A stretch of 26,544 nucleotides of DNA from a virus (IMGVR_UViG_3300020021_000045:1-26544); one strand, 5' to 3'. Counted from the first letter of the stretch, positions 1 through 23,236 are shown. The notes: generated by a model not told the origin, from the letters alone. A program made the numbers and translations.

Positions 1-2319
1 TGGAGCATAAGCTGCCCAATTAGCCTGTATTAATTGGAAATAATAAGAAAATGTTGATATGCCCCAATTCCAGGGTTCATTACCCATCTCTAAGTTAACA
101 CCATTAGTTGGTCCAAGTATTTTAGCACACGTATATCCCTCAGAATAATTATATCCCGTTAGATCATGTTGATTGGTTCCTATTGATGGGAGATTCATCC
201 AAAGTCTGGTATTAGGCAGTCTTGATACAACTGTTGCAAGATGCTCAGTAGGTACTACACTACCAATAGGTGTATTAAGAAAAAGAATAATATCAACTGG
301 TATCTCAACATTTGAATTCACAGTATCAGGATCACTACCAGCATCTGTAGTGAATGGCCAACCGAAGGCTATAGTATCTGAGTTAGTAGCTGTAATACTA
401 ATATTAAGATTGAAACCTGGATAAAATGTATTAACATCTCCACGTATTGTCCATGGTATATTGTAACCTGCTTGATTAACAGGATAAACTAGAACTGTTT
501 GTCCTGTTTTTAATCCATGACCTCCAGGTTGTGTGGTGCGCAATTCAATGATACCGGCTTTTGTATCAGCCCAATTCTGAAGTAGTACACGTCCAGCATC
601 AGTTGCACCGAAAGGTCCATCAGCAATATTGAAATATATTCCGTAATCATCCGTTCCAGTAGGTATCCAACCCTGCGGATTATAAATTTTTGTAGATTTC
701 CATGGTACACTTGTATCAGTTGGATCAGTGCTTAAACGTCTAGCGAATTGAAACTCAATTCCTCTTTGCCTACTTGAATTATTCCATGTAGACAGATTAG
801 CTGACATTTTATCGGCCAACGTACTAAAATTATTTATACCTGCATATCCCCATAGCGCATCCATTCCTCTGACATCACCTGGTGTTATACCATTCAAAGT
901 TAAATTATTAATAAAAACATCATCAGCATCATAATATAATCCATTATCTATATTACCGGGAGCCATCACCAATGGTCTGAAAACATTAGGATTATTAGGA
1001 TGGACAACATGATTCAAACCATCACTTGAAGTCCAATTAATTATCACGTTAGCATAAGTAAATCCTCCTTGCCCCCATCCTAGTGTTAACGGTACTTCTA
1101 TAGTAACAATATTACCATTTATAATTGGCGTAGCAGCTACACCTGCGGTGTAAATTCCTGACGCTGTAAGTGTGAATGATGTTGTCACACCTGGTGGACT
1201 ATTATCAATAAATTTTATTGTCCATGGGCCTCCTTCATACATATGCGCTAAACCAGTAGCAGTTTGATAAATTAAATTAGTTATAGTGCCACCTGGAGTC
1301 CATGATACAGGATTCAAGTTAGCATCTAAAACTACATTTGAACCTTTCCATCCATCACTAGCAAGCATTTTATCCTTGCCAGTAAACATTTCACTTTCTT
1401 GATTATATGTTGGCTGTGGTGGATGCTGTCCACCTACTTTCATTGTTCTTGGAATATCGAAACCAGATAAACTAATAGCCTTTCCCTCAATCTGCCCATA
1501 ATAATTAAACATTGGAGCATTTACTGCTCCAGTAACACTTCCCGCAGAAGTTACCAACCAATTATCCGGTGCTGAATAAGTTACAATATCACTGGCTATA
1601 GGTCCACTCATAACTGGTGATGCGATAGCTCCAGCTCCTGGACCATTATCAATTATTGTTATTACAGGTGGTAATAATAAATTACTTCCACCTTGAAGTA
1701 CGGGAACGTTTTCAATACAATTACCAACAACACATGTAAATGTGCAACCAGTTCCACCAAGATAATCTATTGAACTATCAAATGTACCAGGATACCCAAC
1801 ACCACAACCCCACCAAGTACCACAGAATGGTTTTATGGCTGTAACAGCTCCGTTAACAACAGTGAAAACCATGTTAGCTGGTGATTCTGGATTACCGCCA
1901 GGCATCGGAAGAAGGAAATCACCAGTATAACCTGAACCAGGTGTTTTAATGATAACATTAACTATGCCACTGATCATTGGTAAAATATCTGAATTTATCA
2001 CTACACCTTTAGCGGCTGACACAGCATCAATCGTTGCAGTAGGAGCAGTGTACCCTGTCGTTGCAGCAATTTCCATTGGAATATTTACTATTGAACCATA
2101 CAACAAATCATACATACCAAATGCTAGATGAAAATTCAAATCATCCCATACAAACGTATCAGCTATAACAGGAATATTATTAACTTGAAAAGTTGCATCA
2201 GCATTTTTTGCAGTAATATTTGTGTAAGGGTACTTACCACTTGCGGCTTTAGTATCACTTGTAGTTACAAATGCTGGAACACCACCGTAACTGATAATCG
2301 GATTAATTATGACACCCAT
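1..2319 (-). CDS. Large tail-tip/fibre protein with C-terminal glycoside-hydrolase-like (clan GH-A) domain, 3' end off window
   Basis: I read 773 uninterrupted codons from ATG at 2319 to the left edge; no stop is inside the window. The start has a strong ribosome site (AAGGAG, 5 nt spacing). The N-terminal half (about residues 1-430) is Gly/Pro/Thr-rich, beta-type, with little recognisable homology. Around residue 490-520 a stretch RGMDALWGYAG..NFSTLADKM begins a pattern I associate with phage and planctomycete GH-A-like proteins. A beta insert follows with the tail-fibre-like motif GHGLKTGQTV. The end shows TRLWMNLPSIG and then VNLEMGNEPWNWG, where N747-E748 fits the Asn-Glu-Pro acid/base motif at the end of strand 4 in clan GH-A TIM barrels. 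The nucleophile Glu would lie beyond the window. It is the last visible gene downstream of the tape measure, a normal place for tip or receptor-binding proteins. The likely role is binding or cleaving host surface glycan. Enzyme activity is inferred. Confidence 0.75.
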   Translation of the reverse strand, partial: MGVIINPIISYGGVPAFVTTSDTKAASGKYPYTNITAKNADATFQVNNIPVIADTFVWDDLNFHLAFGMYDLLYGSIVNIPMEIAATTGYTAPTATIDAVSAAKGVVINSDILPMISGIVNVIIKTPGSGYTGDFLLPMPGGNPESPANMVFTVVNGAVTAIKPFCGTWWGCGVGYPGTFDSSIDYLGGTGCTFTCVVGNCIENVPVLQGGSNLLLPPVITIIDNGPGAGAIASPVMSGPIASDIVTYSAPDNWLVTSAGSVTGAVNAPMFNYYGQIEGKAISLSGFDIPRTMKVGGQHPPQPTYNQESEMFTGKDKMLASDGWKGSNVVLDANLNPVSWTPGGTITNLIYQTATGLAHMYEGGPWTIKFIDNSPPGVTTSFTLTASGIYTAGVAATPIINGNIVTIEVPLTLGWGQGGFTYANVIINWTSSDGLNHVVHPNNPNVFRPLVMAPGNIDNGLYYDADDVFINNLTLNGITPGDVRGMDALWGYAGINNFSTLADKMSANLSTWNNSSRQRGIEFQFARRLSTDPTDTSVPWKSTKIYNPQGWIPTGTDDYGIYFNIADGPFGATDAGRVLLQNWADTKAGIIELRTTQPGGHGLKTGQTVLVYPVNQAGYNIPWTIRGDVNTFYPGFNLNISITATNSDTIAFGWPFTTDAGSDPDTVNSNVEIPVDIILFLNTPIGSVVPTEHLATVVSRLPNTRLWMNLPSIGTNQHDLTGYNYSEGYTCAKILGPTNGVNLEMGNEPWNWGISTFSYYFQLIQANWAAYAP

Positions 2320-2330
2320 CTCAACTCCTT

Positions 2331-2807
2331 CTAAGAATTGCTTATAGACTCGAATTCAAATGACACACTAAAGTTATTTTTGTCTCTTTGAGTAAGTACT
2401 ATCTCTGGATTGGTAACTAGAATTGTGGCCCACGTAATATTCTCATAGTCTTTAAGTTCAACAAGTGTTCCCAAATTAGCATTCAGGAAAGTAAATAATT
2501 TCTGTCCATCCAATTGAGTAAGATAATCAATAGTGTAAGAAAATGTTTGAATAAATGGTTTAGAAGCAAATGTACTGGTAGGATCAATTAATAAATCTCT
2601 TCCACGACTTTCTCTTTTAAGTATACTAAAAGTAAGTTTATATTGATTACCAAAACTAGGATTACGTAATGTTAGGAAAAGTATAGTTCCAACAGTGCTG
2701 TTAAAAATTATAACATCTTGTTGTAATACACTTACAGTTGCACCATAATTAAAATTCCATGGTCTAGGAGATGAAGATGCTCCAGCTGGACCAGTGAACC
2801 CACTCAT
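2331..2807 (-). CDS. Conserved phage tail-region protein, function unknown
   Basis: A 158-residue protein with stop TAG, ending 11 nt before the next gene. After a short Gly/Pro/Ser-rich start (MSGFTGPAGASSSPRPW) it is a single soluble beta-rich domain. Recognisable elements in order are LRNPSFGNQYKL, RESRGRDLLI, QTFSYTIDYLTQLDGQKLFTF, LGTLVELKDYENITW, TNPEIVLTQRD and a terminal FSVSFEFE. From memory this layout (NPxFGN, RGxDL, a FLN..LG helix, D.E...W, SFEFE) recurs in uncharacterised proteins beside tail genes of other uncultured phages. That resemblance could not be checked here. No signal peptide or membrane segment is visible. Position after the tape measure suggests a tail-tip or baseplate component. 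Confidence 0.7.
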   Translation of the reverse strand: MSGFTGPAGASSSPRPWNFNYGATVSVLQQDVIIFNSTVGTILFLTLRNPSFGNQYKLTFSILKRESRGRDLLIDPTSTFASKPFIQTFSYTIDYLTQLDGQKLFTFLNANLGTLVELKDYENITWATILVTNPEIVLTQRDKNNFSVSFEFESISNS

Positions 2808-2809
2808 AT

Positions 2810-3307
2810 TTAGAGTCCTTGGCTACCTCTAGTAGGAATAACATATATTTGTACATTACTTTTAAATATTAATGTGTCAGTAATTAATACATTACTATAC
2901 TTATGATTAACTTTAACTGTTTGAGTGAAAGTCAATATATCAGGTAAAAACTTGCCACTATCATAAGTGATATGATCAGAAAAGAATAAAACATTATTAA
3001 ATAAAAATAATCTATCAGCAGTCTGTGTGAAATGTAAATGGTCAACGATTATTGATTCATGGACTCTTCTTATATTTTGAGTAAGAAATAACGTATTAGT
3101 AATATTTACATGTCTACGTACACCTGAAGCTGTAGCAATCTGTCGGAAATCAATAACATCATGTAAATGTCTGACATATAAACCAACATCTTGATTGATA
3201 GCATCCTTGAAAGCTAATTTATCAGGTAAACTAATTATGAATTGATTAGTAGATAAATGCTCAAGGAAAGGCAGTAAATCAGTTAATCCAATATTATATT
3301 TTGCCAT
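2810..3307 (-). CDS. Repeat-containing tail-region protein (D-x-L-x-F-type repeats)
   Basis: A 165-residue protein with stop TAA, adjacent to the 158-aa gene. From about residue 40 to 155 it is built of degenerate units of 16-21 residues with a hydrophobic ladder pattern: HDVIDFRQIA, TNTLFLTQNI, VDHLHFTQTA, NVLFFSDHIT, DILTFTQTV and TDTLIFKSNV. The regular alternation suggests a beta-solenoid or stacked beta-hairpins, as in phage fibres and appendages. The C-terminal half of the protein encoded at 21547-22281 carries the same kind of unit (VDELSL, SDNIDL, NDQLQF, IDELKL), so the two proteins may share a module. No catalytic motif, signal peptide or membrane helix was seen. Role as a structural tail component is inferred from repeats and location. 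Confidence 0.65.
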   Translation of the reverse strand: MAKYNIGLTDLLPFLEHLSTNQFIISLPDKLAFKDAINQDVGLYVRHLHDVIDFRQIATASGVRRHVNITNTLFLTQNIRRVHESIIVDHLHFTQTADRLFLFNNVLFFSDHITYDSGKFLPDILTFTQTVKVNHKYSNVLITDTLIFKSNVQIYVIPTRGSQGL

Positions 3308-3379
3308 AATTTAATTCTATTGATCACCAGTTGAGTACCGGTTTTGCATTATTTTTACGTGGTCGCCACATATAATGAT

Positions 3380-3440
3380 CTTTATTAAAAAATTTATGTT
3401 TTTTGCCGTAATATAAGATAGAAGGAAATGTTTATTTCTA
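3380..3440. promoter_or_regulatory. Conserved intergenic element, copy 1 (promoter candidate)
   Basis: This segment matches another at 24340-24400: ATTAAAA, a 10-nt spacer, then the identical core TTTTGCCGTAATATAAG, followed after a few less conserved bases by a T-rich GTTTA(T/C)TT. Spacing between ATTAAAA and the core is the same in both copies. Both lie between a minus-strand gene to the left and a plus-strand nuclease gene to the right. It could be a promoter for either direction. A TAATAT or TATAAG box is present but no convincing -35 at 17 bp, so a phage-type or non-canonical promoter, or a protein-binding site, is as likely as a sigma-70 promoter. Confidence 0.45.
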
Positions 3441-3464
3441 AGACTCTAATTTAGGAAAATTATA

Positions 3465-3974
3465 ATGACAGAACAAAATCTTAATGGTGATCGCAAAATT
3501 AATAAAGAAGTCATCGAAAAATTTTTGAATAATTTTATTAAAGGAGAAGAAAATAAATGTTGGTTGTGGTTTGGAACACTTCATGAAGGTTATGGTAGAT
3601 TCATGTGTAATGGTGAATATTATTTTGCTCATAGAGTGAGTTGCCTATATTATAATAATTTAATAAAATCGCCCTTACTTGCTTTACATATACGAGAATG
3701 TTTTAATAAGAATTGTGTAAACCCTAATCATTTATATTTAGGAACTCAAAAAGAGAATCAAGAAGATAGAAGTATAATTTACCCTGAATCTTATAATCAT
3801 TGTAAAGGAGAAAGTAATGTCACACATAAATTAACTGAACAAGACATTCGTGATATTAGGTATAAAAAGAAATGTTTAAAACATAAACTTCATCAATTGG
3901 CTAAGGAATACAATATAACCGAATCATATATTGGTCTAATTGTTCAAGGTAAAGCATGGAAACATATTAAATAA
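3465..3974 (+). CDS. HNH homing endonuclease with C-terminal helix-turn-helix
   Basis: A 169-residue protein on the strand opposite to the structural genes, with AGGAAAATTATA before ATG as ribosome site. The N-terminal part has the zinc-loop HNH_3-type signature: CWLWFG (about 32-37), GYGRF (42-46), FAHRV with catalytic His56, then LHIREC (H75, C79) and CVNPNHLYLGT (C84, N86, H89). The C-terminal 50 residues (HKLTEQDIRDIR...YNITESYIGLIVQGKAWKHI) form the Lys-rich helix-turn-helix that these freestanding homing nucleases use for DNA recognition. All expected metal and catalytic residues are present, so it looks functional. It sits beside a second, degenerate relative, between structural genes, which is typical of a mobile insertion. 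The target site is unknown. Confidence 0.9.
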   Translation: MTEQNLNGDRKINKEVIEKFLNNFIKGEENKCWLWFGTLHEGYGRFMCNGEYYFAHRVSCLYYNNLIKSPLLALHIRECFNKNCVNPNHLYLGTQKENQEDRSIIYPESYNHCKGESNVTHKLTEQDIRDIRYKKKCLKHKLHQLAKEYNITESYIGLIVQGKAWKHIK

Positions 3975-4015
3975 GATAGTTAATTTTCTTGTTTCATTGT
4001 TTTAAGGAAAATAAA

Positions 4016-4519
4016 ATGACTGATGTTAATAGAGACCATGAAATAAATTTCGCCATTTGGCAAATAGCTGAAAGTTATTTTATTGAAGATGATCCAAATA
4101 TATGCTGGCCATGGTTAGGAGGTTTTGATAGTAGAGGAACACCTAGATTCAAGAAAAATAAGATTTATTATAAAGCACGTAGGGTAATATTATTACACCA
4201 TTTAGGTTTGAAACAATCAGATTTATATCTCTTAACTAAACCTGAATGTAAATTACAAACTGAATGTTGCAATTGGAATCATATGTTTCTAGGTACACCT
4301 AAACAAAGTACTGCTTTATTAATAGATAGTCGAAGACATGATTCTCTTAATAGAAAAGGAGAAAAGCATCCTATGCATATTTTAACAGAAGAAAAAGTTC
4401 TTACTATAAGAGCTGAATATGCTGAAGGTATGTCTTACACAGAACTATCACATAAATATGAAGTAGCTTATGTACTAATAATAAAAATTATTAATAGGGA
4501 GCTATGGAATCATATTTAA
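4016..4519 (+). CDS. Diverged HNH-family protein, probably nuclease-dead
   Basis: A 167-residue relative of the preceding HNH gene. I chose ATG 4016 because AAGGA lies 8 nt upstream; an ATG at 3989 in frame lacks a good site. The architecture is the same: CWPWLGG (30-36), PRF (43-45), a core region, FLGTPKQ, then a C-terminal helix-turn-helix ending in RELWNHI. The key positions differ. The catalytic His of A-H-R is replaced (KARRV, Arg55), the second metal His of LHxxEC is lost (LLTKPEC), and CVNPNH has become CCNWNH with only the last His kept. Cleavage is therefore doubtful, while the DNA-binding end remains. It may be a decaying homing nuclease or one now used as a DNA-binding protein. 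It probably arose by duplication or a second insertion and is likely co-transcribed with the first. Confidence 0.8.
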   Translation: MTDVNRDHEINFAIWQIAESYFIEDDPNICWPWLGGFDSRGTPRFKKNKIYYKARRVILLHHLGLKQSDLYLLTKPECKLQTECCNWNHMFLGTPKQSTALLIDSRRHDSLNRKGEKHPMHILTEEKVLTIRAEYAEGMSYTELSHKYEVAYVLIIKIINRELWNHI

Positions 4520-5093: not shown

Positions 5094-8000
5094 TCAGCCC
5101 TTCTTAAAGAATGTTTCGTCTATGGAACCTTTACGTATTTCACGCCTTAACTGTTCCGCTATGGTTTTACCGAAATTAGGATCACGGGATGTGTGAGTCA
5201 CATTTAAATGTATATCACCAACATTTGTAGTATGGCTTTGAACACTACCTCCTGTATTATAGTATTGAGTGCTAGGTGTAAACACTTGTGGTATGAATGA
5301 AGCGATCATACCTCCTTCAGCGTGATACTCTGGGAATGTGTAAGGATCGATACCTTTATTCATGGACTCAAGTTGTGGTAGAAACTTACTCGTGTTAGCA
5401 GCATTGATTACATATTCCTTCGGTGAAAGCATAGCAGGAATAGTATCAGTACCTTTAGAATAATAACTAATGCTTTCAGGAACCATCCCACCTTTTGCAA
5501 ATGCAAAAGTAGAGAAATCAATACCTGTTGCTGTAGCTACACTATCAGCTGCTCCACTAACTACACCACCAAAACTAGATGAACCATAATTACCAGTGAA
5601 TCCCGCACTTGCAGCTATACCTTGAGATAATTGAGCTTCAGATCCTGGTTGAGAGAAAGATGAGTTCACGAAACCCTGTGACGATAAACCAAAATTTTGT
5701 GAAGCCTGTGCTTGAGGACTTGGTGCTCTCTGTGAAGAACCTTGAGATTTACTATCTAACTGTTTAATTAGACTCTTCGCTATACCTATCTTACTAGCTA
5801 AACTTTCAGATACAGAATTCGCACTTGATACTTTACTAGTCAAACTTGTCGATGTTGATCTCGCATCATTAATATTAGTTTGAATTTTACTATCCACATT
5901 ACTAACTTTACTTAAACTACCACCTAGATTCTTATACGCAGTATTTGCGACTGTTGATTGCTCATTCAATTTATTTGATAATGTTGACGAATTAACAACA
6001 TTACTATGTAATTTTTCAACAACATTATTAGCTTTACTGACATTAGTATTTAAATTATTTACGCTCCCGCTTACCTTACTTGTTATCTGATTACTGATAT
6101 CATTAATATTAGGTCCATCGATAATTTGATTATCTGAATTTAAATTAAGTTGACCTAAACTAGATCCACTTTCTTCTGTACCACCTTCCTGAAAATACTT
6201 GACTAACCCACCTTTATACATCTTCCAAGGATCGATACCTTGATTTATCATTTCCAATTGAGGAAGGAACTTGAGTGATCCCTTGGTTGACACAACGAAC
6301 TCATTCGGTGATAGCATAGCTGGTATGGTGTCTGTACCTTTAGGTACAAAAATATTCTTACCGCCTTCTTGAAAATATTTAACTAACCCTCCCATATACT
6401 TATTTGTAGCACTATCATCAAGAAGTCTTGTCAAATAAGATTGACCTGATGGTGTGGCAAGAAGCTCTGTTGTAGATCTACCACTGAAGAAACCATGTTT
6501 CTCTGCTTGTTTAGCCATCCAATCAGCATCATGTGTAATATTAGGAGAAAGCTTAACAGGGAAGTTAAGTGGCTCCTTCATGTGTTGCTTAAAGACCTGA
6601 GCAGTATATGGGATATCACCCAATGAAGCAGGTATTTCACTAGCTGTTATAGACGTAAGACCTTTAAAATTTGGAATCTTAGGCGATGAAACATTACCTA
6701 CATCAATAACTTGTTTAGTGTGCTCCATTTCATGTCTTAACGCACCTAATCTATCTATATTTGTTACATTCTTATCTGCTAAAGTTATTCCAAGTTTATC
6801 AAAAGCTGTTATCCCTACTCTTGAAAATGGAGATTGAATCATAGCAGAATTAGAAGTGGATTGATGCGGTATAATTGTTGGAGTCTTACCTTGCCAAGTA
6901 TTTAGTATTGCATTAACAGATGCAGGTGTAATCTTATCTTGTGGGTACCCTTTAGATACAGCATAATCTACAATACTTTTACGTAATTCATCAGTATGTA
7001 ATTTATTAACTAAATTAATGGCTCCCATATGGTTACCAGCCATCAATTTAACTATTTCACCTGATGCATCTTTATCTTTACCAATAGAACTTTTCGCTCC
7101 CTCGATATTCCAATGCGAAATAATATTGTTCAAAACTGTGTTACTATCTGTTAAACCGCCTTCTTGATGGTAACCTAAGGCTTTACTTGAATAACTACTA
7201 TCCGAAGACTCGAAAGGATTACTAAATGTTTTAGTATCTACACTACTTGCGTCAAGAAGTCTCTTAATATAAGATTGACCAGATGGTGTTGCAAGAATCT
7301 CTGTGGCACTCTTGCCTTTAAAAAGTCCATGCTTCTCCGCTTGTTGGGCTATCCAATTAGCATCATGAATAACACCCGGTGCCACTTCAACATTAGCATA
7401 TATAGGTTTACCAGTGTATTGCTTAAATGATTGAGCGATATGTGCGTAATCACCTAGTACAGCAGGTATTTCAGTTGGTACATTACCCTGCTTAACATGC
7501 TCTAATTGATGTTTTAACGATCCTAACGTATCTATATTAAGTAATTTCTCTTGTGACTTTAAATTTATTTTGTTATCAATATATTGTGTTTCTAATTGAT
7601 TCTTTACTATAGCTGGTGTTGATCCTGAGAAAGCCTGTGCAACATTTCTGAAAGATGCAGGAGTCACCTGACCAGTAGGATAACCTTGAGTTTGAGCAGC
7701 ATCAACAAGATTTAATGTACCAAATGGTTTACCATGTAGATGGTGCTCTAGATTTGCAGCACCTTTTGGATTAGCAGCTAGTAAACTCTCAATCTTACTT
7801 GCAGATTCACTTACATCACCCTTACTACTTAACAAATTCCAATGTGAAATTAGATTGCTTATGGCTACATCTTCAGGTATTATGTTGTTTCTTACATTAC
7901 CACCATCTTGATAGTAATTCTCAAAACCTACATTACTATTAGTTTTACTTAGATTTGACACATGATCTGACATATTATAATTTTCAAATGTCACACCACC

Positions 8001-11000
8001 TGAAGAATAATTATGACTAAAATTAGTAGGCTTACTGTAAGCAGATTTATAATTACTAATAGGATCAACAGCTAGATTCTGTAATCCTGCTACATCACTT
8101 CTATATTGTTTCTGTAAGTTAAGTTGATTACTTAAACCTTGAGCATAAGTAGGTAAACCTCCATATGAATGGTAGGAAGGATCAATACCTTGATTCATTA
8201 ACGTCAACTCTTTCAAGAATTTAGTTGTACCCTTATTTGATACAACATATTCTTTCGGAGTCAACATTGCAGGTATAGTATCAGTGCCTTTAGAAATGAA
8301 AGTACTTTGATCAACCACTCCACCATCTTGATAGTATTTAGTTAATCCTCCGCCATATTTATGGGCAATACTTACGCTACTATTTTTTAGATTAAAAGAG
8401 CATTGCTCACTTGATTCCGGATTATTAAAACATTGTTGAGCAATATCTGAATAATTTTTTCCACCCTCTGAATAATAATTCTCAAACCCTCCATGAGCAT
8501 GGCTTGATTCATTATAGTTCTCAAATGACACGCCCCCACTAGAATAATTCCCTAATCCTATTATTCCTCTGGTTGATTCTCCACCCATACTTTTATTAGA
8601 TGTATTGCTTGCCTTCAACAAACGTGTCAGATAGGCTTGACCAGATGGAGTAGCAAGAAGCTCAGTTGTGCTCTTGCCTTCGAGGAAACCATGCTCTTTA
8701 GCTTGTTTGCTTATGAATGATGCGTCATGAGTTATGCCAGGAGCAACTGTAACTTTAGCATCTAAGGGTTTACCCATATGCTGTTGAAATATACTCGTTG
8801 TATGTATTATATCTCCAAGTGAAGCAGGAATCTCAGCAGTTGGTTGATAAATTTGTTTTAAGAAATCACTATCTATATCACTAACAGTTGTTTGTTGTTT
8901 AGAATGCTCTAATTCATGCCTTAATGTGCCTAATTTATCTAAACTAACTTTTGAAACTTCTTTATTTAATTTAATTATGTTACTTGATTCACTATAAGTT
9001 GAAACATTTTGATTCCTAAGTATTTCAGGCGCAGTACCTTTATAATCTTGTAAAGCAAAACTAAATGATGCAGGTGTTATTTGGCCAACAGGATAACCTT
9101 GTTTCTCTGCTGCACTGATAAGCTCTTTACGAGGATTAATACCATGTAACTTACTATTTAAATTTACTGCACCTTCAGGGTTCTTAATCATAAGCCCCAT
9201 GATTTTATCTGAAGCTTTATGCGCTGAACCTAATGAACTGCCTTCTTTAGCATTCCATTGTAGAAGTAATTCATTAATAATATTATCAGGATCAGTTATT
9301 TTACCACCTTCAGCATAGTATCCACCTTTATAGAAACCTACAGGATTAATCTCTGGTATAATTGGAGATGATTTGAAACCAGGGGTAACTGAAGCTAAAG
9401 AAGAAACAGGAGCAGGAGCAAATGCTGCTTCAGGAATATTAACTACTGGAGTAGGGTAAGGTGGCACCACAGGTTGAATAATATCTGGTCTCTTAGGAGT
9501 AACACCTTGAATACGTTTCTCTGCTTCAATATTTATTCTGTGTCTTTCACGAGCTTCTTCAAGTTGATTAAATAAATCTTTAGGTTTAGGAGGAGGATTA
9601 TTTCCATACTCACTTGTATACGGACCTTTAGGTATAGGTAAATCAAAGTAAGGTTTATACTTGCTTCCTGGATTCTCTTTTAAAACCTTACTTGCATCAC
9701 TGGCAGCAATTCTTTGAATAGTATCAACATGCTTACTCGCATTAATATTTAAATTAGTTAAGTCTTGTTGCTCTTGGATATATGAATCCAATTCTTTCTG
9801 CGTAGGTGCTGGATTATTTCCATACTTATCCGTGTAAGGGCCACGAGAATAAGGTAACCTAGGATAAGGTTTATAAGAAGTAGTTGCAGAAATAACTTTT
9901 GCATGATTCTCTGCAATTCTATCAGCAAGTAATGTGCGTGTATTAGCTTCTACATTTATTTTATGTATATCTGTATTTTTTTGAGTTAGTTCATCCAGAA
10001 TTCTTTGACTAGGTGCAGGATTAGTTCCGAATTGACTTGTATATGGACCTTTAGAAATTGGAAGAGAGAAATCAGGTTTATAATTAAGATTAGATACATT
10101 GAAAGCATTAGGTCGTTGTATAGGTGTTATGCCTACAACACCTTGCTTCACTGTTTGAATAAATCCTGGTGGCACATATTGTTTACTTATATCGGCAGTT
10201 GCGCCTATCTGACTTTGCTTGACTGTTTGAACAAATCCTGGTGGTACATAATGCTTACTTAAATCAGTAGTTATATGTGGAATATTTTGTTGTATTGTTT
10301 GAATGAAACCCGGTGAAACTTTAGTTTTAGGTTTCAAGAAGTTTTTACTGAAATTATTAAGATACTTAAGTATTAATTGTGAGAGATCTAATTGCCCACC
10401 TTCAGCTAAATATTTTACTAAACCTCCCGTATAACCCTGCGTAGCATCATCGATCATGCTCGTAATAATATCAGTAGCAAATGATCCTGTAGAACCTAGA
10501 TTTCTTTTAGTTATTGCTATCGAATCTTTAAGTGATGTATCACCACCTTCTTCAAAATATCCACTCTTCATACTTTCTAATGTGGTTCTATATTTCTTTG
10601 TTTTATCTGCTGGCATCACATATTCATTAGGTGATAACATAGCAGGGATAGTATCTGTGCCTTTCGGGATGAAACCTCCCTCAGCGTAGTATTTCGTTAC
10701 TCCACCTTTCTCATATAAATAATGTATATTTCTTCCAGGTATATCTTTATATAGATCTCCCTTGTAGGGTTGTCTTGTTATCATCCCTCCTTCCTGATAA
10801 GCTGCTATTAATCCTCCTGCACTCTCTGAATAATTCATTCCTGATGGTTCAGCGGGAAAATCTGGAGTTAACCCTCCACTTGTAAAGTACGGACTTATTA
10901 AACCTCCTTTACTTTCTTCTTGAACAAACCCTGGTGGAACTAATGGAGTAGGTGTTGCAGGTGGCCGAAAAGCACTTTCATAAGGTATTACTGAACCAAC

Positions 11001-14000
11001 ATACGCACTTTCAGGAATAGAAGTATTAATAGCTTTCGCAGGAGGTATAAGTTGTGCTTCCTGCTCTTTAGAAAGTGGCGTATTAGTTTTGATTATTTGG
11101 TTAATATTATTAGATGCTTGCTCAATATTAGATGTAAGTGTATTAATTACTCTACTTAATGCTGGAGCATCTTTACTTAAACTCTCTTTCAATGCATTGA
11201 ATTCTGCAGCTGTACCTGTTAGAGCTTGAGGCAATGACCCAGAAAGAATTTGCTCTATTGATTTCTTTTGAGTCTCTAATTCTTTAACATTAATCTGTGT
11301 AGATGTTACTGTTTCTTTTCTTTTCTCTAATTCAGGTACAAGTTTTGCTATACCTTCTACACTAATTTTTGTTAATTTAAATAGGTCACCTAGAGTAGAA
11401 GTAGTATCGTATCCTTTCTCATTTTTACCAGTTACTATTGGTACAGTAGAAAATAATTTACTTTTATTCTCGAAATCTTCAAGTTGTTTAAGTACATCTG
11501 GTGCTTTCTCTGGATTAAGTCTTAAATTCTCAATCGGTGCAACTAAATCCCTAAAGGCATTTTTAATATCAGCACCTTCTTGTTGGGATACAATACCTGG
11601 TTCAGTGTGAAACACTGTTGAACCTGAGGAACCTATTGCAGTCCCTATTCTATTAATATTTGTTCCAGCCTCAAATGATAATTTGCCGTATTGACCAGTT
11701 AATTTAGTTAACTGGTCTTGATTATCTTTTATTACTTGAGTAGCTTTAATAATATCTGTAGTTAATTTTTGTATCCCAGTCTCAACATTAGTTATATCTA
11801 AAGCCTCTTTGCCTATACTTTTCTTTGCATCCTCAAATTTATCTATTGCAGTTTTAAATTCACTAACTTGTTTCTTTAATGTTGAACTAATATCTATCCG
11901 CTCAGGTATATTTACAGTACCTGTAATTTTATTTATGTCATCAATACCTTTAAGTATTTTAGCCTTAAGTTTATCTAATTCATCTATCCTCTCTTGACCT
12001 TTCTGTGCACGAGTCCTAACCGTTACACCACCAACTATTTCAGGTTCAAGATATTTTCCCGTCTTCTCATTAACTAATGATAAATCTTCAAATTTCTTGT
12101 AATCATCCTTAACCTGCTCAAAAAGTTTTCTTTGCTCTTTAGCTTTATTAGCTGCACTCTCAGCAAATTTGGCTTGAGCTATCGCTTGGTTATTTATAGA
12201 TTGTAGTATTAATTGTTCAACAGATAATCTTAAATGTCCAGCTGCAATAATATCATTATAAGATCCACGTTGTTGCACAAAACTATTCTGTAAACCATTA
12301 GCTAATTGGTAAGCTTCTTGTAGAGTACTATTCAGTCTTTCGAGAGCAGCAGGATTAACTTCAGCTTCTTTGCCTATTGCTGCTGCTCGTTGCTTTAATG
12401 TAGCTATACGGTTAAGAGTCAATGCCGCTTCATTAGGTGATACACCCTGGTAACCAGCTGCTTGGTAATCGCCTTGTGCTGCACCTATTCTAGTCTGGAA
12501 TTGATTCCTCTCGAAATCTAGTGAAGTATCTTTAGCTTTCTGTTTAGCCTCATTACTGTAATCACTAGCTTTCTTGGCAGCACTTTCGATGCCTTGAATA
12601 CCTCTCTCTAAAGAACTTAATGTGAGTTTAAATACGTTACCAGTTTGATTTTCAATATCTTTAAGAAGACTCTTATGCTTAGTGAATTGCGTCTCTAAAA
12701 TATTTATTACAGAAGCCGCTTGTCTAGAATATAAAGTATTCCAAGTCTTAAGATCTTTATTTATCTCACTTGTTATTATTCCTAATCTAGACTTAAATTC
12801 ATCAACATCAACATCTATATTGACTTTTGTTTTCTTATCCAATTGCTCTAGAAGAGCTATATAATCTTCTTTTAATTTCCTTATTATTGCATCAACACCG
12901 AAATACCCTGCAGCGAAACCAGCAACAGCTAATCCAGTTCCACCTACAACTGTTAATGGTGCGGCAATTTTACCTCCACTTGTAGCAGCATAAGCCGCAT
13001 TAGCCGCAGTCGCTCCTAATGTAGCAGTTGTTACAGCCTTGTAAGCTGTTACTATACCTCCAAGAATACTAACTAAACCTTTGATAGCTAATGACGCAAT
13101 ATAAAAACTTCCAACAGCTGAACCTGCTATCACAACTACATCAACTAATTGTTTAAATTTATTAGATAAACCTCCAACTAAATCAGAAACAGTAATAAAA
13201 ACTTGTTGTAACTTAGTAGCAATATCTACAGTAACAACATTTTGTAAACGTGTAGTTTCTTCTTTGAAACGTTGCGCAAAAGTTTCAGATGTTATGCCCT
13301 TAGCTGATTGATAAGTAGCTTGTTGTGTACTTATATTTTTAAGAGCTTCAGCATATTCTTTACCACCATCTGTAGCTAAACCAACAGCAGCTTGCAATTT
13401 ACGTATTTCAGGAAATAATGCGGCTACAGTAACACTACCTGATTCAGCAGCTTTAGCTAACTCATTGATAGCACCAGCCATACCACCTGTTACAGTGATA
13501 AAACCTTTACCATCATCAACGCCATAACTACTAAGAAACTTTTTAAATTCAGCACTAGGTTTCTCGAAAGCTAACAAGAAATTAGCTACACGAGTACCAG
13601 CTTCTTGAGGATTGAAACCTTTCAAAGTTAATAATGTTAATGCTGCACTTACTTCCTCTAAACTAACACCAAGATCACGGGCTAAAGGTCCGGTACGCCC
13701 TAAAACAGCATTAAGCCCTTCAGCTGTTACACGTCCATAATCAATAGTATTAAAGAATAATGAAGCAACATGCTCCGATTCACTTATATCTACACCGAAA
13801 CCTTTAATAGCTGTAGTAAATATACCAACACTATCGTTAAGACTTGAGCCGGTGGTACGTGCGAATTCACTTATAGTTGCTAAGAATTTTTGTGTTTGCT
13901 CAGCATTCTGTGCTACCTGATTACTAAGTGTATCATAACCCGCTGATGCTACTTCAGTTATTGGTTGCCCGAATTGATCAGAAAGTTCTCTAACGGATTT

Positions 14001-16871
14001 CGTCCAAGCCTGTGTTGAAGCTGGTTGATCTTGAGTTATAGTGCGTATCAGTGCTATCTTCTGTCCTAATTCACTTGCAGCTCTTATACCTTCTACCATT
14101 ACATTATTAAGATCACTAAATATTCTATATGTAGCTAATCTAGTAAAAATTCTTGTTTGATCAGTTAATTTTGCAAATGCTCCCGCAAATAATCCAGTAC
14201 GACCAGTTGCAGTAGTTGTAACAGTAGCTAAATTTGATATATCTTTACTTGCCTCTTTAACTGGTTCACTTGCAGCTGGATCAAGAATAGCTTTACTAGC
14301 TATATTCTTTAATGCTTGACTGTATTGATTAGCAGTTATCGAACCACTAGCTAATGAATGAGTTAATTTATCAATAATCTCATTATAACGTTGTACACTA
14401 GCAAATGTGGCAGCAGATGGTAACGGTCCAAAAGTATCCCGTGCACCCTGTACTACAGTAGTATGAGCTTGTGGTAGAGCTTTAGCAAGTGCATCACTTT
14501 TAGCTCGCGCAGCTATACCTATAGCTATATTTAACTGTTCACTATTCTCGGCATTCTTACGAGCATTTGAAGCTTCTACTCCCTTCCTACCAGTTTCAGT
14601 TAATACTTGTCCCAAAACTCTATAAGCCGCAGTTAGATTTTCCAAATGTGGTGCAACAGTTTTCGTAGGATCGAAAGCTGCTGTAGCTGCTTCTAAGTGT
14701 TCAGCGGGTGTAGCTTTGAAAGATGCTGCTTGAGTAGCAACACTTAACTGTGCAGCAGCGTAACGTTTCCTAAAATTAGATACATCAGCTGGTTCAAGAT
14801 CAGGAGATATTATAGGTGGTCCAGCCACACCTTCATATGTAGATTTAGCTAAACGTGCCTGTTGACCAAGTAACTGTTTACCTTCTCTTTGAGGTATAGC
14901 AAACTCTTGATTAAATGCAGTTTTTGCTGCTACTTCAAATTTAGTTGTTAAATCTGTTGCTGTTCTAATTATATCTACAAATTTTTGTAAACTTGAATTA
15001 TCTAATTTTGTTCCACTCAAAGCTGATACAAAAGCTTGTTGAATCTCACCAGCTGAAGCTTTAACATTTAAAGCAGCTTGAGCAGCCTTACTTGCTATCG
15101 TATCAAACGCACTATATAATTTAGCAGCTTGCTCTGGTGGCACATTAGCTAAGACTGGTCGAGGAAGTGCCGCACTGACTTGCTCTTTATTAATTGCATA
15201 TTGTGATATATTGCTTCTAGTAGCTGTAGCATTACTTATATCAAAGGCTTTTTGATTAGCTATATTAACTCTTTCCCTAGCAGTTACTACACCTTCAGTG
15301 GTTCTACGAATATTATCTAAATCATTTGGTACTGCACCCAAACCAGTATGTACTACTCTGACAGCATCTGTTAATTCTTCTAGGCTTGCCTTAGATTTTA
15401 AAGCTTCCTCACCTAATCTAGCAAACGATGTATCTTGTTTAGCTTTTAGACCTATTTCTTGTTCTCTAGTTAAACCTGTTGGTTTAGGGGCAGCACCAGC
15501 AACACCTTCAAAAATTTGTTTACCAGTGTCTGTGTATAATTTCTTAGCAGCAGTAACTTCCCTATATTTAGTGCCCTGTGATTCAGCTAAAGCTTTAGCA
15601 TTTGCTTCTTTGAAAGCATTAACTTGAGCTATTAATTTTACAAACTCGAAGCGTATCGTTTCCAAACCAGCAGTTAAAGGCCCTACACTACGGCCTGATA
15701 ATGCCGCTGATAGAGCCTTGTCTAAATCATGGCTTGATACATTTAATCTTTGAGCTTCTGTACTAACACGTCTTAACTGTGCAATATATCCTATCTCAAG
15801 ATCTTCAGTTTTTTTCGGAGTAACTAAAGGTATAGTTGTAGGTGGACCTAATTTAGATTCTACTTTAGTCGCAATCTTTTGAGTGAATGGATCTAAACCT
15901 TCTCTCGATTCCCTAAGAAAATTCAACTGTTTAGCTGATGCACCTGCTGCTGCACTACCTATCGCGTTAAGAGCATTCTTGACTTCAAGATAAGCTCTAG
16001 CTATCCCTAAAGCTTGTGGTTCTAAATTAGCGAAATCGCCTTTACCTAATTTAATAAATAATGATTCTAACTGTTCTTTAGGTACTTCTGTTTGACGAAC
16101 TGATGTAGTTAATCTTTCCCCTGCTTCTTGAACTCTCAGTATTTCACTTGCTGAAGCACCTCCTAATTTAGCTGGAGGTATAAGTGTTCGAGCAAAATTG
16201 TCTCCCTTAATTTTGGCAGCGCTAGCTAGATTCTCTGGTCCAGTTAGATGGGCTATACTATCTTGTATGTAACCTGTAGTATTGGTTAGAACAGAAGCAT
16301 TTTTCTGTAATCTATTGAAAGCTGTACTGACATTCGTTAACCCTTGAGTCAACGGTCCAGCTATAGGTGCACCTGCACTTAAACTAGTTAATATAGTTTT
16401 CAGTTCTTCAGCACTTGCTCCAGATTTCCTTATAGCATCGTTAAGTGCATTGAAATCTTTAGTTATTTTGCCTTGATCAGTTGATTTCAAATCTTTAGTT
16501 GTACTGTAATCAACTGCTTTAGGAGCTACTTTACTCGCTTTCTCATTAGATTCAGCTAATTTTGTTAATTGTAATGCATATTCACGAGCCGCTTTAGCAC
16601 CATCAGTAAATTTAATAACATTACCTTTAAGAGTGGCACCAAGAACTTCATTATCTTTACTGAGTTGTACAGTGGCTTTACCGGCTCCTTCAACAGAATA
16701 TGTAATTAATGCTCCAAGTTTTTTACCATCACTATCGTACTTCTGAACTATACGTTCTAATGATTTTATTCCATTAGTGGCAAATTTTTCCAAAGCCTGG
16801 GCAGCTATCCCAGCTTTCTCAACTATATCATCGACATCCATGCCTAATACAGTTACATTATCATCAGCCAA
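5094..16871 (-). CDS. Giant tape measure protein with three metallopeptidase-like domains
   Basis: This 3925-residue protein sets tail length and enters the tail lumen. Start is TTG (16871) because an in-frame TGA lies just upstream; the AAGGA site is about 13 nt away, so initiation may be weak, with ATG at residue 11 as the alternative. Residues 1-900 hold six or seven helical repeats of about 115-130 aa. A phage-tail tape-measure core (TP901/PhageMin_Tail type) spans about 910-1205, with GFGVDISESEHVASLFFN and LARDLGVSLEEVSAALTLL. Hydrophobic helices follow at 1244-1327, which may form the membrane-inserting part, then coiled coil to about 1950. The C-terminal half has Gly-Gly linkers, four KGTDTIPAML(S/T)P motifs, short tandem repeats, three HExxH-like domains (about 2528-2756, 2998-3208, 3244-3487), a coiled coil (about 3570-3720) and a typical end, LRREIRKGSIDETFF. 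Tape measure identity is firm. Peptidase function is inferred. Confidence 0.95.
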   Translation of the reverse strand: MADDNVTVLGMDVDDIVEKAGIAAQALEKFATNGIKSLERIVQKYDSDGKKLGALITYSVEGAGKATVQLSKDNEVLGATLKGNVIKFTDGAKAAREYALQLTKLAESNEKASKVAPKAVDYSTTKDLKSTDQGKITKDFNALNDAIRKSGASAEELKTILTSLSAGAPIAGPLTQGLTNVSTAFNRLQKNASVLTNTTGYIQDSIAHLTGPENLASAAKIKGDNFARTLIPPAKLGGASASEILRVQEAGERLTTSVRQTEVPKEQLESLFIKLGKGDFANLEPQALGIARAYLEVKNALNAIGSAAAGASAKQLNFLRESREGLDPFTQKIATKVESKLGPPTTIPLVTPKKTEDLEIGYIAQLRRVSTEAQRLNVSSHDLDKALSAALSGRSVGPLTAGLETIRFEFVKLIAQVNAFKEANAKALAESQGTKYREVTAAKKLYTDTGKQIFEGVAGAAPKPTGLTREQEIGLKAKQDTSFARLGEEALKSKASLEELTDAVRVVHTGLGAVPNDLDNIRRTTEGVVTARERVNIANQKAFDISNATATRSNISQYAINKEQVSAALPRPVLANVPPEQAAKLYSAFDTIASKAAQAALNVKASAGEIQQAFVSALSGTKLDNSSLQKFVDIIRTATDLTTKFEVAAKTAFNQEFAIPQREGKQLLGQQARLAKSTYEGVAGPPIISPDLEPADVSNFRKRYAAAQLSVATQAASFKATPAEHLEAATAAFDPTKTVAPHLENLTAAYRVLGQVLTETGRKGVEASNARKNAENSEQLNIAIGIAARAKSDALAKALPQAHTTVVQGARDTFGPLPSAATFASVQRYNEIIDKLTHSLASGSITANQYSQALKNIASKAILDPAASEPVKEASKDISNLATVTTTATGRTGLFAGAFAKLTDQTRIFTRLATYRIFSDLNNVMVEGIRAASELGQKIALIRTITQDQPASTQAWTKSVRELSDQFGQPITEVASAGYDTLSNQVAQNAEQTQKFLATISEFARTTGSSLNDSVGIFTTAIKGFGVDISESEHVASLFFNTIDYGRVTAEGLNAVLGRTGPLARDLGVSLEEVSAALTLLTLKGFNPQEAGTRVANFLLAFEKPSAEFKKFLSSYGVDDGKGFITVTGGMAGAINELAKAAESGSVTVAALFPEIRKLQAAVGLATDGGKEYAEALKNISTQQATYQSAKGITSETFAQRFKEETTRLQNVVTVDIATKLQQVFITVSDLVGGLSNKFKQLVDVVVIAGSAVGSFYIASLAIKGLVSILGGIVTAYKAVTTATLGATAANAAYAATSGGKIAAPLTVVGGTGLAVAGFAAGYFGVDAIIRKLKEDYIALLEQLDKKTKVNIDVDVDEFKSRLGIITSEINKDLKTWNTLYSRQAASVINILETQFTKHKSLLKDIENQTGNVFKLTLSSLERGIQGIESAAKKASDYSNEAKQKAKDTSLDFERNQFQTRIGAAQGDYQAAGYQGVSPNEAALTLNRIATLKQRAAAIGKEAEVNPAALERLNSTLQEAYQLANGLQNSFVQQRGSYNDIIAAGHLRLSVEQLILQSINNQAIAQAKFAESAANKAKEQRKLFEQVKDDYKKFEDLSLVNEKTGKYLEPEIVGGVTVRTRAQKGQERIDELDKLKAKILKGIDDINKITGTVNIPERIDISSTLKKQVSEFKTAIDKFEDAKKSIGKEALDITNVETGIQKLTTDIIKATQVIKDNQDQLTKLTGQYGKLSFEAGTNINRIGTAIGSSGSTVFHTEPGIVSQQEGADIKNAFRDLVAPIENLRLNPEKAPDVLKQLEDFENKSKLFSTVPIVTGKNEKGYDTTSTLGDLFKLTKISVEGIAKLVPELEKRKETVTSTQINVKELETQKKSIEQILSGSLPQALTGTAAEFNALKESLSKDAPALSRVINTLTSNIEQASNNINQIIKTNTPLSKEQEAQLIPPAKAINTSIPESAYVGSVIPYESAFRPPATPTPLVPPGFVQEESKGGLISPYFTSGGLTPDFPAEPSGMNYSESAGGLIAAYQEGGMITRQPYKGDLYKDIPGRNIHYLYEKGGVTKYYAEGGFIPKGTDTIPAMLSPNEYVMPADKTKKYRTTLESMKSGYFEEGGDTSLKDSIAITKRNLGSTGSFATDIITSMIDDATQGYTGGLVKYLAEGGQLDLSQLILKYLNNFSKNFLKPKTKVSPGFIQTIQQNIPHITTDLSKHYVPPGFVQTVKQSQIGATADISKQYVPPGFIQTVKQGVVGITPIQRPNAFNVSNLNYKPDFSLPISKGPYTSQFGTNPAPSQRILDELTQKNTDIHKINVEANTRTLLADRIAENHAKVISATTSYKPYPRLPYSRGPYTDKYGNNPAPTQKELDSYIQEQQDLTNLNINASKHVDTIQRIAASDASKVLKENPGSKYKPYFDLPIPKGPYTSEYGNNPPPKPKDLFNQLEEARERHRINIEAEKRIQGVTPKRPDIIQPVVPPYPTPVVNIPEAAFAPAPVSSLASVTPGFKSSPIIPEINPVGFYKGGYYAEGGKITDPDNIINELLLQWNAKEGSSLGSAHKASDKIMGLMIKNPEGAVNLNSKLHGINPRKELISAAEKQGYPVGQITPASFSFALQDYKGTAPEILRNQNVSTYSESSNIIKLNKEVSKVSLDKLGTLRHELEHSKQQTTVSDIDSDFLKQIYQPTAEIPASLGDIIHTTSIFQQHMGKPLDAKVTVAPGITHDASFISKQAKEHGFLEGKSTTELLATPSGQAYLTRLLKASNTSNKSMGGESTRGIIGLGNYSSGGVSFENYNESSHAHGGFENYYSEGGKNYSDIAQQCFNNPESSEQCSFNLKNSSVSIAHKYGGGLTKYYQDGGVVDQSTFISKGTDTIPAMLTPKEYVVSNKGTTKFLKELTLMNQGIDPSYHSYGGLPTYAQGLSNQLNLQKQYRSDVAGLQNLAVDPISNYKSAYSKPTNFSHNYSSGGVTFENYNMSDHVSNLSKTNSNVGFENYYQDGGNVRNNIIPEDVAISNLISHWNLLSSKGDVSESASKIESLLAANPKGAANLEHHLHGKPFGTLNLVDAAQTQGYPTGQVTPASFRNVAQAFSGSTPAIVKNQLETQYIDNKINLKSQEKLLNIDTLGSLKHQLEHVKQGNVPTEIPAVLGDYAHIAQSFKQYTGKPIYANVEVAPGVIHDANWIAQQAEKHGLFKGKSATEILATPSGQSYIKRLLDASSVDTKTFSNPFESSDSSYSSKALGYHQEGGLTDSNTVLNNIISHWNIEGAKSSIGKDKDASGEIVKLMAGNHMGAINLVNKLHTDELRKSIVDYAVSKGYPQDKITPASVNAILNTWQGKTPTIIPHQSTSNSAMIQSPFSRVGITAFDKLGITLADKNVTNIDRLGALRHEMEHTKQVIDVGNVSSPKIPNFKGLTSITASEIPASLGDIPYTAQVFKQHMKEPLNFPVKLSPNITHDADWMAKQAEKHGFFSGRSTTELLATPSGQSYLTRLLDDSATNKYMGGLVKYFQEGGKNIFVPKGTDTIPAMLSPNEFVVSTKGSLKFLPQLEMINQGIDPWKMYKGGLVKYFQEGGTEESGSSLGQLNLNSDNQIIDGPNINDISNQITSKVSGSVNNLNTNVSKANNVVEKLHSNVVNSSTLSNKLNEQSTVANTAYKNLGGSLSKVSNVDSKIQTNINDARSTSTSLTSKVSSANSVSESLASKIGIAKSLIKQLDSKSQGSSQRAPSPQAQASQNFGLSSQGFVNSSFSQPGSEAQLSQGIAASAGFTGNYGSSSFGGVVSGAADSVATATGIDFSTFAFAKGGMVPESISYYSKGTDTIPAMLSPKEYVINAANTSKFLPQLESMNKGIDPYTFPEYHAEGGMIASFIPQVFTPSTQYYNTGGSVQSHTTNVGDIHLNVTHTSRDPNFGKTIAEQLRREIRKGSIDETFFKKG
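6413..7142 (-). other. Metallopeptidase-like domain 3 of tape measure (HEMEH)
   Basis: About residues 3244-3487. It repeats the layout: YPQDKITPASV, LRHEMEH (H3380, E3381, H3384 at 6720-6734), SEIPASLGD with E3412, and EKHGFFSGRSTTELLATPSG. All candidate catalytic and zinc-binding residues are present. The distance from the second His to the Glu is 28 residues. Confidence 0.6.
7250..7880 (-). other. Metallopeptidase-like domain 2 of tape measure (HQLEH, probably inactive)
   Basis: About residues 2998-3208. It is collinear with domains 1 and 3 (YPTGQVTPASF, LKHQLEH, TEIPAVLGD, EKHGLFKGKSATEILATPSG). The catalytic Glu of HExxH is Gln3122 (HQLEH at 7497-7511), while both His and E3134 remain. 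Zinc binding may persist without catalysis. The spacing from the second His to the Glu is shorter (9 residues). Confidence 0.6.
8605..9292 (-). other. Metallopeptidase-like domain 1 of tape measure (HELEH)
   Basis: About residues 2528-2756 of the tape measure. An N-terminal helical part ends with YPVGQITPASF. The motif LRHELEH follows (H2652, E2653, H2656 at 8904-8918), with E2680 in AEIPASLGD 24 residues after the second His, a candidate third zinc ligand. The domain ends with KEHGFLEGKSTTELLATPSG. The HExxH...E layout matches zinc metallopeptidases of the gluzincin type, but no family could be assigned from sequence reading alone. Confidence 0.6.
9590..10090 (-). repeat. KGPYT-type tandem repeat in tape measure (3 units)
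   Basis: Three units of roughly 65-75 residues begin with YKP.(F/P).LP, then (K/R)GPYT(S/D).(Y/F)G.NP.P, then a charged helix of about 40 residues (NVEANTRTLLADRIAENH, NINASKHVDTIQRIA, NIEAEKRIQGV). The units alternate a short Pro-rich turn and a helix, which would make a stiff extended linker between the coiled-coil part and the peptidase-like part. Confidence 0.75.
10150..10320 (-). repeat. 24-residue tandem repeat in tape measure (PGF(V/I)QT)
   Basis: Three units with an exact 72-nt period: the PGF codons recur at about 10161, 10233 and 10305. The peptides are SPGFIQTIQQ, PPGFVQTVKQ and PPGFIQTVKQ, each followed by a short segment with a D(L/I)SK.YV pattern in the first two. The nucleotide similarity is high enough to indicate recent tandem duplication. 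Confidence 0.8.
14230..16480 (-). repeat. Tape measure N-terminal helical repeats (6-7 units)
   Basis: Within the tape measure gene, residues about 130-880 contain diverged units of about 115-130 aa. Each has a helix starting with a Ser/Thr cap and an acidic stretch, then a Gly-containing turn and a second helix. Examples are GASAEELKTILTSLSAGAP, VSSHDLDKALSAALSGRSV, KASLEELTDAVRVVHTGLG, KASAGEIQQAFVSALSGTK and KATPAEHLEAATAAFDPTK. A further shared piece, (F/Y)EGVAG.P, occurs twice. The repeats probably form extended helical hairpins that lengthen the ruler. Confidence 0.6.
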
Positions 16872-18546: not shown

Positions 18547-19248
18547 TTAAGGAGCTACGTGGTCAACTATAGCATAAATAGCATTGCAAGTTGCTTTTAT
18601 ACTAACTTTACCGCCCTTTAAGTCATGATCTAGAGATGTCCAACGAAATTCTGGTAGCCTAATACTTTCAGCATTTGTTCCACATGGTGGAATATTTAAT
18701 ACGTACATGTCAATACAATATGGTTCACATGGATCAGCACTGGTAGATACCCAATTCAGTGCTTGACCAATCTGTTTTAAAGCTTCTTCGATTGTTGGTA
18801 AACTACCTGAGAACGATCGAAGATCTTCCCATGTGAAATCCATTGTTACATCAAGTGGTACATCATCACCAGCTCTTACAAAATCAATAAAACCTCTATT
18901 TAATACTGTTACTATATTACGTTTCTCACTATATGTTAGATTCCCTTCACCTAGTTTAGCATATATACCATTACCTAATATATTGATTGCTGTACCGCTT
19001 GACACATTCTGTAATAAACCTGGATAAATAAGCATGCCACCACTTGTACTAACAACTTCATAGAATTGAAGATGACTACCGAATTGTACGTATTGCCCTG
19101 TTGTTGCAGTTCCACCTGGAATAATGCTACCATAATTACTTCTGAATGGTAATAAGGCAGATTGATTCCCAGAAACTGTACCACCACTTCCTGGTAGACT
19201 ACCATCAACAATCCATAAAGTTGTATTTCTCAAATCAATAACAGCAAT
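18547..19248 (-). CDS. Tail tube-like protein, paralogue 3 (AUU start likely)
   Basis: The third and most diverged of three tandem paralogues, 233 residues if started at ATT 19248. That codon aligns with the ATG of the other two (IAVIDLRNTTLWIVDG against MAVIDLRSVTLWITD) and lies 7 nt after AGGAG at 19256-19260. The next possible start, TTG at 19233, is 22 nt from the site and would drop conserved residues. After a variable beta module (about residues 24-95) comes the conserved C-terminal part: KLGEGNLTYSEKRN, DRGFIDF...GDDVPLDVTMDFTW, TIEEALKQIGQALNW, STSADPCEPYCIDMYV, IPPCGTNAESI and FRWTSLDHDLKGGKVSIKA. It is probably a tail tube or tube-related structural protein. Confidence 0.8.
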   Translation of the reverse strand: MAVIDLRNTTLWIVDGSLPGSGGTVSGNQSALLPFRSNYGSIIPGGTATTGQYVQFGSHLQFYEVVSTSGGMLIYPGLLQNVSSGTAINILGNGIYAKLGEGNLTYSEKRNIVTVLNRGFIDFVRAGDDVPLDVTMDFTWEDLRSFSGSLPTIEEALKQIGQALNWVSTSADPCEPYCIDMYVLNIPPCGTNAESIRLPEFRWTSLDHDLKGGKVSIKATCNAIYAIVDHVAP

Positions 19249-22823: not shown

Positions 22824-23236
22824 GCGACCTCTTTAGCTACGGCTATAGCTGCTAGAATACATGAGCCACTCTCTAAACCATGAGGGATACAAATATTATT
22901 TTTAATCCATTCGCCGAATTCCTTATGTATCATGACAAATAATTCTTGGGGAGTTAAATTGACACCAATTTTATTATAAAACTCTTTTAGGTCTTTAGAT
23001 ATTGGAGCATACCATGATCGTACTTCAGCAGTTATTAGATAAGGTGAATTAATTGTACCTAATCCTTTAACTATAAATTCTGTTTCAGCTCGTTTAATCA
23101 AGTAATCCCATATTGTAGTTAATTTATTCTCAATACTTTCAAATTTATCTTTATCTAATTTAAATGCTATACCTGTTGAAATTAATAATGTTATCACAAC
23201 TAGCATAGTGTCAGCAAATATTATTTCATTAGTCAT
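22820..23236 (-). CDS. Membrane-anchored protein, paralogue B flanking the PAS gene
   Basis: A 138-residue protein with AAGGATAGCAG before ATG, overlapping the PAS stop by 8 nt. An N-terminal helix (about 8-25, ADTMLVVITLLISTGIAF) anchors a soluble domain: IWDYLIKR, a variable segment, LKEFYNKIGVNLTPQELFVM, IHKEFGEWIKNNICIP, GSCILAAIAVAKEV. The soluble part aligns with the C-terminal half of the protein at 23751-24332 (IWD....R, YNK, ELF...H..FGE, G.C..LA..IAKE). The Trp, Arg, HxxFGE and GxC positions are the most conserved. The family is not recognised. Two copies around a PAS gene suggest a shared membrane-associated complex. Confidence 0.6.
   Translation of the reverse strand: MTNEIIFADTMLVVITLLISTGIAFKLDKDKFESIENKLTTIWDYLIKRAETEFIVKGLGTINSPYLITAEVRSWYAPISKDLKEFYNKIGVNLTPQELFVMIHKEFGEWIKNNICIPHGLESGSCILAAIAVAKEVA

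Follow-up and report, generated by a model that had tools for sequence, protein, structure and literature searches.

The tape measure protein encoded in a 26,544-base virus window from IMG/VR (the window being the whole stretch of DNA analysed) carries three collinear HExxH-type domains, which lie between duplicated copies of one of the protein's own modules. Two motif histidines and a downstream glutamate are conserved in every copy, and the array is absent from the tape measures of relatives. We consider the domains to be candidate zinc peptidases, and set out below the evidence for that reading together with the alternatives to it.

The tape measure protein and its three domains

The window holds a minus-strand, siphovirus-like structural block comprising a coat protein of the P22 type (Pfam E = 1e-28), tail genes and the tape measure gene. 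The product of positions 5094–16871 (minus strand; 3,925 residues, TTG start) is identified by its profile matches as a tape measure protein of the PhageMin_Tail/TP901 type. In Pfam, PhageMin_Tail (PF10145) matches residues 959–1143 (13443–13997, minus strand) with E = 3e-23, the NCBIfam model TIGR01760 matches with E = 7e-22, and the best of several matching tape-measure families in PHROG reaches 7e-23. The gene for this long tail protein lies between those for the tail tube and the tail tip, in an order that matches the relatives designated G002 and G004.

Alignment of the three copies, all on the minus strand, places the first at residues 2524–2756 (8604–9302), the second at 2992–3210 (7242–7898) and the third at 3240–3488 (6408–7154). 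These are paralogous domains of about 220–250 residues each, with 46–47% identity to copy 1. Motif searches found HELEH (residues 2652–2656; 8904–8918) followed by EIPASLGD (2680–2687; 8811–8834) in copy 1, and HEMEH (3380–3384; 6720–6734) followed by EIPASLGD (3412–3419; 6615–6638) in copy 3. Copy 2, which has HQLEH (3121–3125; 7497–7511) and EIPAVLGD (3134–3141; 7449–7472), is distinguished by glutamine in place of the putative catalytic glutamate and by a short inter-helix loop, with 8 residues between the second histidine and the EIPA glutamate where copies 1 and 3 have 23 and 27. A sequence-only reading had proposed three such domains between 6413 and 9292, one of them with the glutamate-to-glutamine change, each with an E-I-P-A-(S/V)-L-G-D motif after a gap of 9–28 residues and a common E/KHG...G(K/R)S.TE(L/I)LATPSG block. 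The domains lie where that reading placed them, with outer limits that agree with ours to within 10 bases; the distances from the second histidine to the EIPA glutamate are 24, 9 and 28 residues in copies 1, 2 and 3, and the block recurs in all three.

The putative zinc ligands, two histidines and one glutamate, are thus present in every copy. The second glutamate of the motif is likewise invariant, as are an HD pair (residues 2715–2716 in copy 1), an HG pair (2727) and a lysine and a glutamine that follow the motif, and upstream of it the domains have an invariant W-N...GYP.GQ.TPAS block and predicted helices. The chance expectation of HExxH over the whole protein is 0.045; the three motifs are not independent occurrences, because the copies descend from one ancestral domain. 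In all pairs of copies dN is lower than dS (dN/dS of about 0.33–0.51, with dS near saturation), so the copies are constrained rather than decaying freely, and at their level of protein identity they are too divergent to be an assembly artefact. Pfam matches to TFIIB and LisH in copy 3 were judged to be due to chance, since they fall on other helices and in one copy only.

The insert and the tape measures of relatives

Relatives were gathered via the coat protein (8 loci) and via a tail protein that is triplicated in the window (64 loci). The three tandem paralogous genes for the latter (18547–19233, 19282–20019 and 20094–20840, minus strand) encode proteins of which the outer two share 76% and 64% identity with the central one, with weak matches to distal tail proteins. 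By BLASTP, an ancestral tape-measure core at residues 772–1940 (11052–14558, minus strand) is collinear with residues 76–1267 of G002 (23% identity, E = 1e-64), and a conserved C-terminal tail at residues 3792–3917 (5121–5498, minus strand) matches G002 residues 1266–1361. Comparison with G002 and with the tape measures of the other relatives delimits an inserted stretch of about 1,850 residues (1941–3791; 5499–11051, minus strand), placed exactly between the relatives' core and C-terminal tail; they have nothing that corresponds to it except the C-terminal module, of which it holds additional copies. Residues 1–771 (16871–14559, minus strand) form an N-terminal extension of about 700 residues relative to G002, segments of which show weak similarity to one another.

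The duplicated module is marked by the sequence GTDTIPAML. Motif searches, BLASTP and DNA repeats locate it at residues 2071–2079 (10635–10661), 2862–2870 (8262–8288) and 3512–3520 (6312–6338), and a fourth copy at 3807–3815 (5427–5453; all minus strand) has the position seen in relatives. By BLASTP the first three of these copies also match the C-terminal module of G002, at residues 2067, 2855 and 3498. Against these four modules, relatives' tape measures in which the motif scan matched have exactly one of the GTDTIPAML type, about 80 residues from the C-terminus, and cultured phages that are unrelated also have a single C-terminal module of this type in their tape measures.

Forty-two tape-measure homologues from the tail-protein relatives were compared, 32 of them uncut by a contig end, and neither HExxH nor HQxxH occurs in any of the 42. 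The uncut proteins are nearly all 1.1–1.46 thousand residues long, the exception being one frame of 853 residues, and it is the entire domain, not merely the motif, that the relatives lack. Since they have neither the domains nor the extra modules, the domains belong to an insert specific to the phage studied. In the explanation we prefer, the tape measure acquired this insert, made up of extra C-terminal modules and three copies of a zincin-like domain; taken as a whole, with peptidase activity included, we give it about an even chance. Tape measures must stay thin enough for the tail tube, yet some bear enzymes, and a nearly tripled protein set against 32 complete relatives without the domains offers a clean natural comparison for asking how cargo fits into the tail and whether inserted length counts towards the length of the tail.

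Pfam shows no M23 peptidase or lytic transglycosylase anywhere in the 3,925-residue protein, nor in the tape measures of the two plus six relatives scanned, so the domains are not obviously substituting for a known wall enzyme. The tape measure of one relative, IMGVR_UViG_3300009504_000032 (L224:12673-20679, plus strand; at least 2,669 residues within the locus), has an RNase_T/DnaQ-type exonuclease domain at residues 1034–1200, in an N-terminal extension (Pfam E = 1.5e-11). A short literature search surfaced no fusion of RNase_T to a tape measure. As a further case of enzyme-like cargo in a tape measure, this domain was counted in favour of explaining the insert as cargo.

Candidate zinc peptidases and their alternatives

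HExxH with a downstream glutamate is present in copies 1 and 3, and copy 2 has HQxxH. A zincin-like fold is slightly more likely than not for the domains, whilst predicted peptidase activity of copies 1 and 3 has in our estimate an even chance of being right; copy 2 would then bind zinc yet be inactive. Support comes from the persistence of the ligand positions in three of three copies despite the loss of the catalytic glutamate from one. As a counterpoint, the fourth residue of the motif is glutamate in all three copies, a position that is normally uncharged in the zincin consensus. Overall, we treat enzyme activity as a plausible but tentative reading.

Profile searches found no curated peptidase family among Pfam, PHROGs and NCBIfam (at the curated cut-off or E < 0.001) and no PDB match for the domains. 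The best Pfam match, and the sole family there to match the HELEH segment of copy 1 even weakly, was the putative metallopeptidase DUF6782 (PF20573), which we rejected as below the cut-off (E = 0.23; 10–11 bits against a cut-off of 27, over 54 of 241 positions). No homologues of the domains were found in IMG/VR, either with the three-copy alignment and peptides of copy 3 or with the patterns EIPA.LGD with upstream H...H and HDA.....QA..HG, and none in GTDB genomes, in INPHARED phages and PLSDB plasmids (tblastn), or among the relatives, eight reached via the capsid and 46 via the tail protein. AlphaFold models had a pLDDT of 42 from the three-copy alignment alone and of 49 once 19 core rows of a phage family described below were added, both too poor to position the two histidines and the glutamate, and Foldseek returned no match. 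The second model has HELEH in helix 122–135 and EIPA just before helix 160–176, the HExxH helix itself having a pLDDT of about 35; at this low confidence the predicted order of HExxH helix, loop, EIPA and helix would be that expected of a minimal zincin.

The same results bear on a non-enzymatic explanation, in which the repeated domain would be structural or bind metal, serving to extend or decorate the tape measure, and HExEH would be a look-alike segment of helix. The want of fold or family support from the profile searches and low-pLDDT models fits such a spacer, as do the missing catalytic glutamate in one of the three copies, the atypical glutamate at the fourth position, an insert built of internally duplicated modules and an N-terminal extension that is likewise weakly self-similar. 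Set against it are the low chance expectation of HExxH in the tape measure and the invariance of the two histidines, the downstream glutamate and the HD and HG pairs when more than half of all positions differ, and we consider the spacer explanation somewhat unlikely.

A different active-site arrangement would be the inverted zincin motif HxxEH seen in M16 enzymes. This sequence is kept in all three copies, and on such a reading the middle copy could be active too: the second glutamate of the motif is invariant, whereas the first is glutamine in copy 2. M16 enzymes place their third ligand about 76 residues further along and differ greatly in fold and size. In the present domains the invariant glutamate of the TE(L/I)LATPSG block follows at a varying distance of 65 to 84 residues, and M16 was not matched in Pfam. 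We regard an inverted motif as very improbable.

A wider motif scan of IMG/VR bears on the atypical fourth residue. It gave 42 loci, 41 of which (L018–L059 except L027) form one real family with HE(L/I/M/V)EH, a glutamine three residues on and EIPA or EVPA about 27 residues on, in proteins that stand alone or are fused to NMN adenylyltransferase-like (NadM/NadR) proteins. Some members have a second HExxH domain (HELVHHHQ...EREAYE). The family appears to be undescribed. In the 257 billion bases of the GTDB collection the same pattern gave 49 matches, of which the 26 in frame look like chance occurrences, and the family is therefore phage-specific. A Flavobacterium phage protein related to this family, and found by similarity rather than by motif, keeps HEIEH and a downstream glutamate, from which it follows that HExEH is genuinely conserved as a motif in phages, charged residue at the fourth position included.

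This family could be the parent of the tape-measure domains, one member having moved into the tape measure. The two have HE(L/M)EH..Q and EIPA in common at similar spacing, and hhalign aligns them with E = 5.6e-5 and a probability of 66%. However, when columns are shuffled with the motif alone left in place, 8 of 100 shuffles reach that score, which the motif used to select the family thus explains, and the match is gone once the motif is masked; similarity to the family therefore extends little beyond the motif and is not significant there. The family proteins are also not tape measures, and the regions before the motif differ, with beta strands in the family and predicted helices in the domains. 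The family was dropped as a parent after the shuffling control, and we think membership unlikely.

Precedents, possible roles and other features of the window

On the zincin reading, HExxH would lie on one helix and the EIPA glutamate at the start of the next, the two jointly binding zinc. By analogy with T5, whose tape measure lies with its C-terminus at the tail tip and releases that end first (PMC10038345), the corresponding end would sit at the tip here and leave first at infection, and the domains, on glycine-rich linkers, might then act there. Their substrate could be the host envelope, whether its proteins or cell-wall peptides, or they could cut the tape measure itself and so release segments. 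Their position in the C-terminal third, together with the T5 precedent, suggests action on one or other of these substrates if they are active.

The tape measure of T5, pb2, is cleaved after R1127, which separates from it a metallopeptidase motif that has muralytic activity (PMC10038345). Judged by its description, that motif is likewise C-terminal and downstream of the core, but it is a single copy at the very end that is cut off in maturation, unlike the copies found here, which number three, are internal and precede a conserved tail. The sequence-only reading had contrasted the domains with known tape-measure enzymes, taken to be mostly M23 peptidases or lytic transglycosylases, and pb2 makes that contrast too strong. 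It had also held repeated HExxH domains to look different from what is known, which is likewise too strong, as arrays of one to five such domains are common in injected polyvalent proteins (PMC5512222). In these phage and plasmid proteins the zincins are interspersed among other domains, have HEXXH in one helix and the glutamate in the next with variable inserts between, and show no specific relation to known clades or classical peptidase families (PMC5512222). The metallopeptidase domains described by Iyer et al. (2017), in 12 clades, likewise come in several copies within a giant protein with interspersed modules, encoded among virion genes; the likeness is one of architecture, and delivery of the present domains is presumed from the role of a tape measure. 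That paper mentions tape measures nowhere (0 occurrences, PMC5512222), whereas in the present case a tape measure bears the domains, with duplicates of its own module among them. Should the domains prove to be peptidases, they would extend the polyvalent-protein theme to this class of protein. A third precedent is the tape measure of Thermus phage P23-45, which, in the part of the account drawn on here, is another giant enzyme-carrying protein, of 5,002 residues, with a virion RNA polymerase and a metallopeptidase domain, such domains being according to its authors characteristic of many tape measures (PMC10770324). It differs in its RNA polymerase cargo, and that part of the account reports no triplicated domain.

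Self-processing alone, in which the peptidases have the tape measure as their sole substrate and cut it either in assembly or once inside the cell, a role proposed for DdrB of P1, is consistent with the motif, alignment and insert data. Autoproteolysis is the role favoured for such domains in polyvalent proteins, action on host proteins also being allowed (PMC5512222), T5 supplies a tape measure that is cut near its C-terminus (PMC10038345), and with three copies set between repeated modules there would be three points of release. However, the protease that cuts pb2 is unidentified and acts upstream of the peptidase of pb2, and the tape measures of relatives manage without the domains. We consider it unlikely that this is their only function. 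More broadly, the T5 precedent would favour the cell wall as target and the polyvalent proteins self-processing, and the present data do not separate the two.

Single metallopeptidase motifs in tape measures (T5, P23-45) and HExxH arrays in injected phage proteins were thus known already. What is probably new is a triplicated HExxH array between duplicated tape-measure modules, whose enzymatic part we infer; in the open-access literature searched, no triplicated, partly inactivated array interleaved in this way was found. A bolder reading, which we hold to be unlikely, is that of an undescribed zincin family known so far from this protein alone, with two active copies and one inactive copy mounted between the duplicated modules, which would give the tail a built-in series of peptidases for opening the host envelope or for stepwise release of tape-measure segments on genome entry.

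Elsewhere in the window, a PAS-domain protein is encoded inside the structural block (23229–23741, minus strand; Pfam E = 2.6e-16), and small genes with similar C-termini adjoin its gene. Three genes run opposite to the strand of the block (3465–3974, 3989–4519 and 24547–25098, plus strand), one encoding an endonuclease VII-like protein (E = 3e-18) and two encoding related homing-endonuclease-like proteins without a Pfam match.
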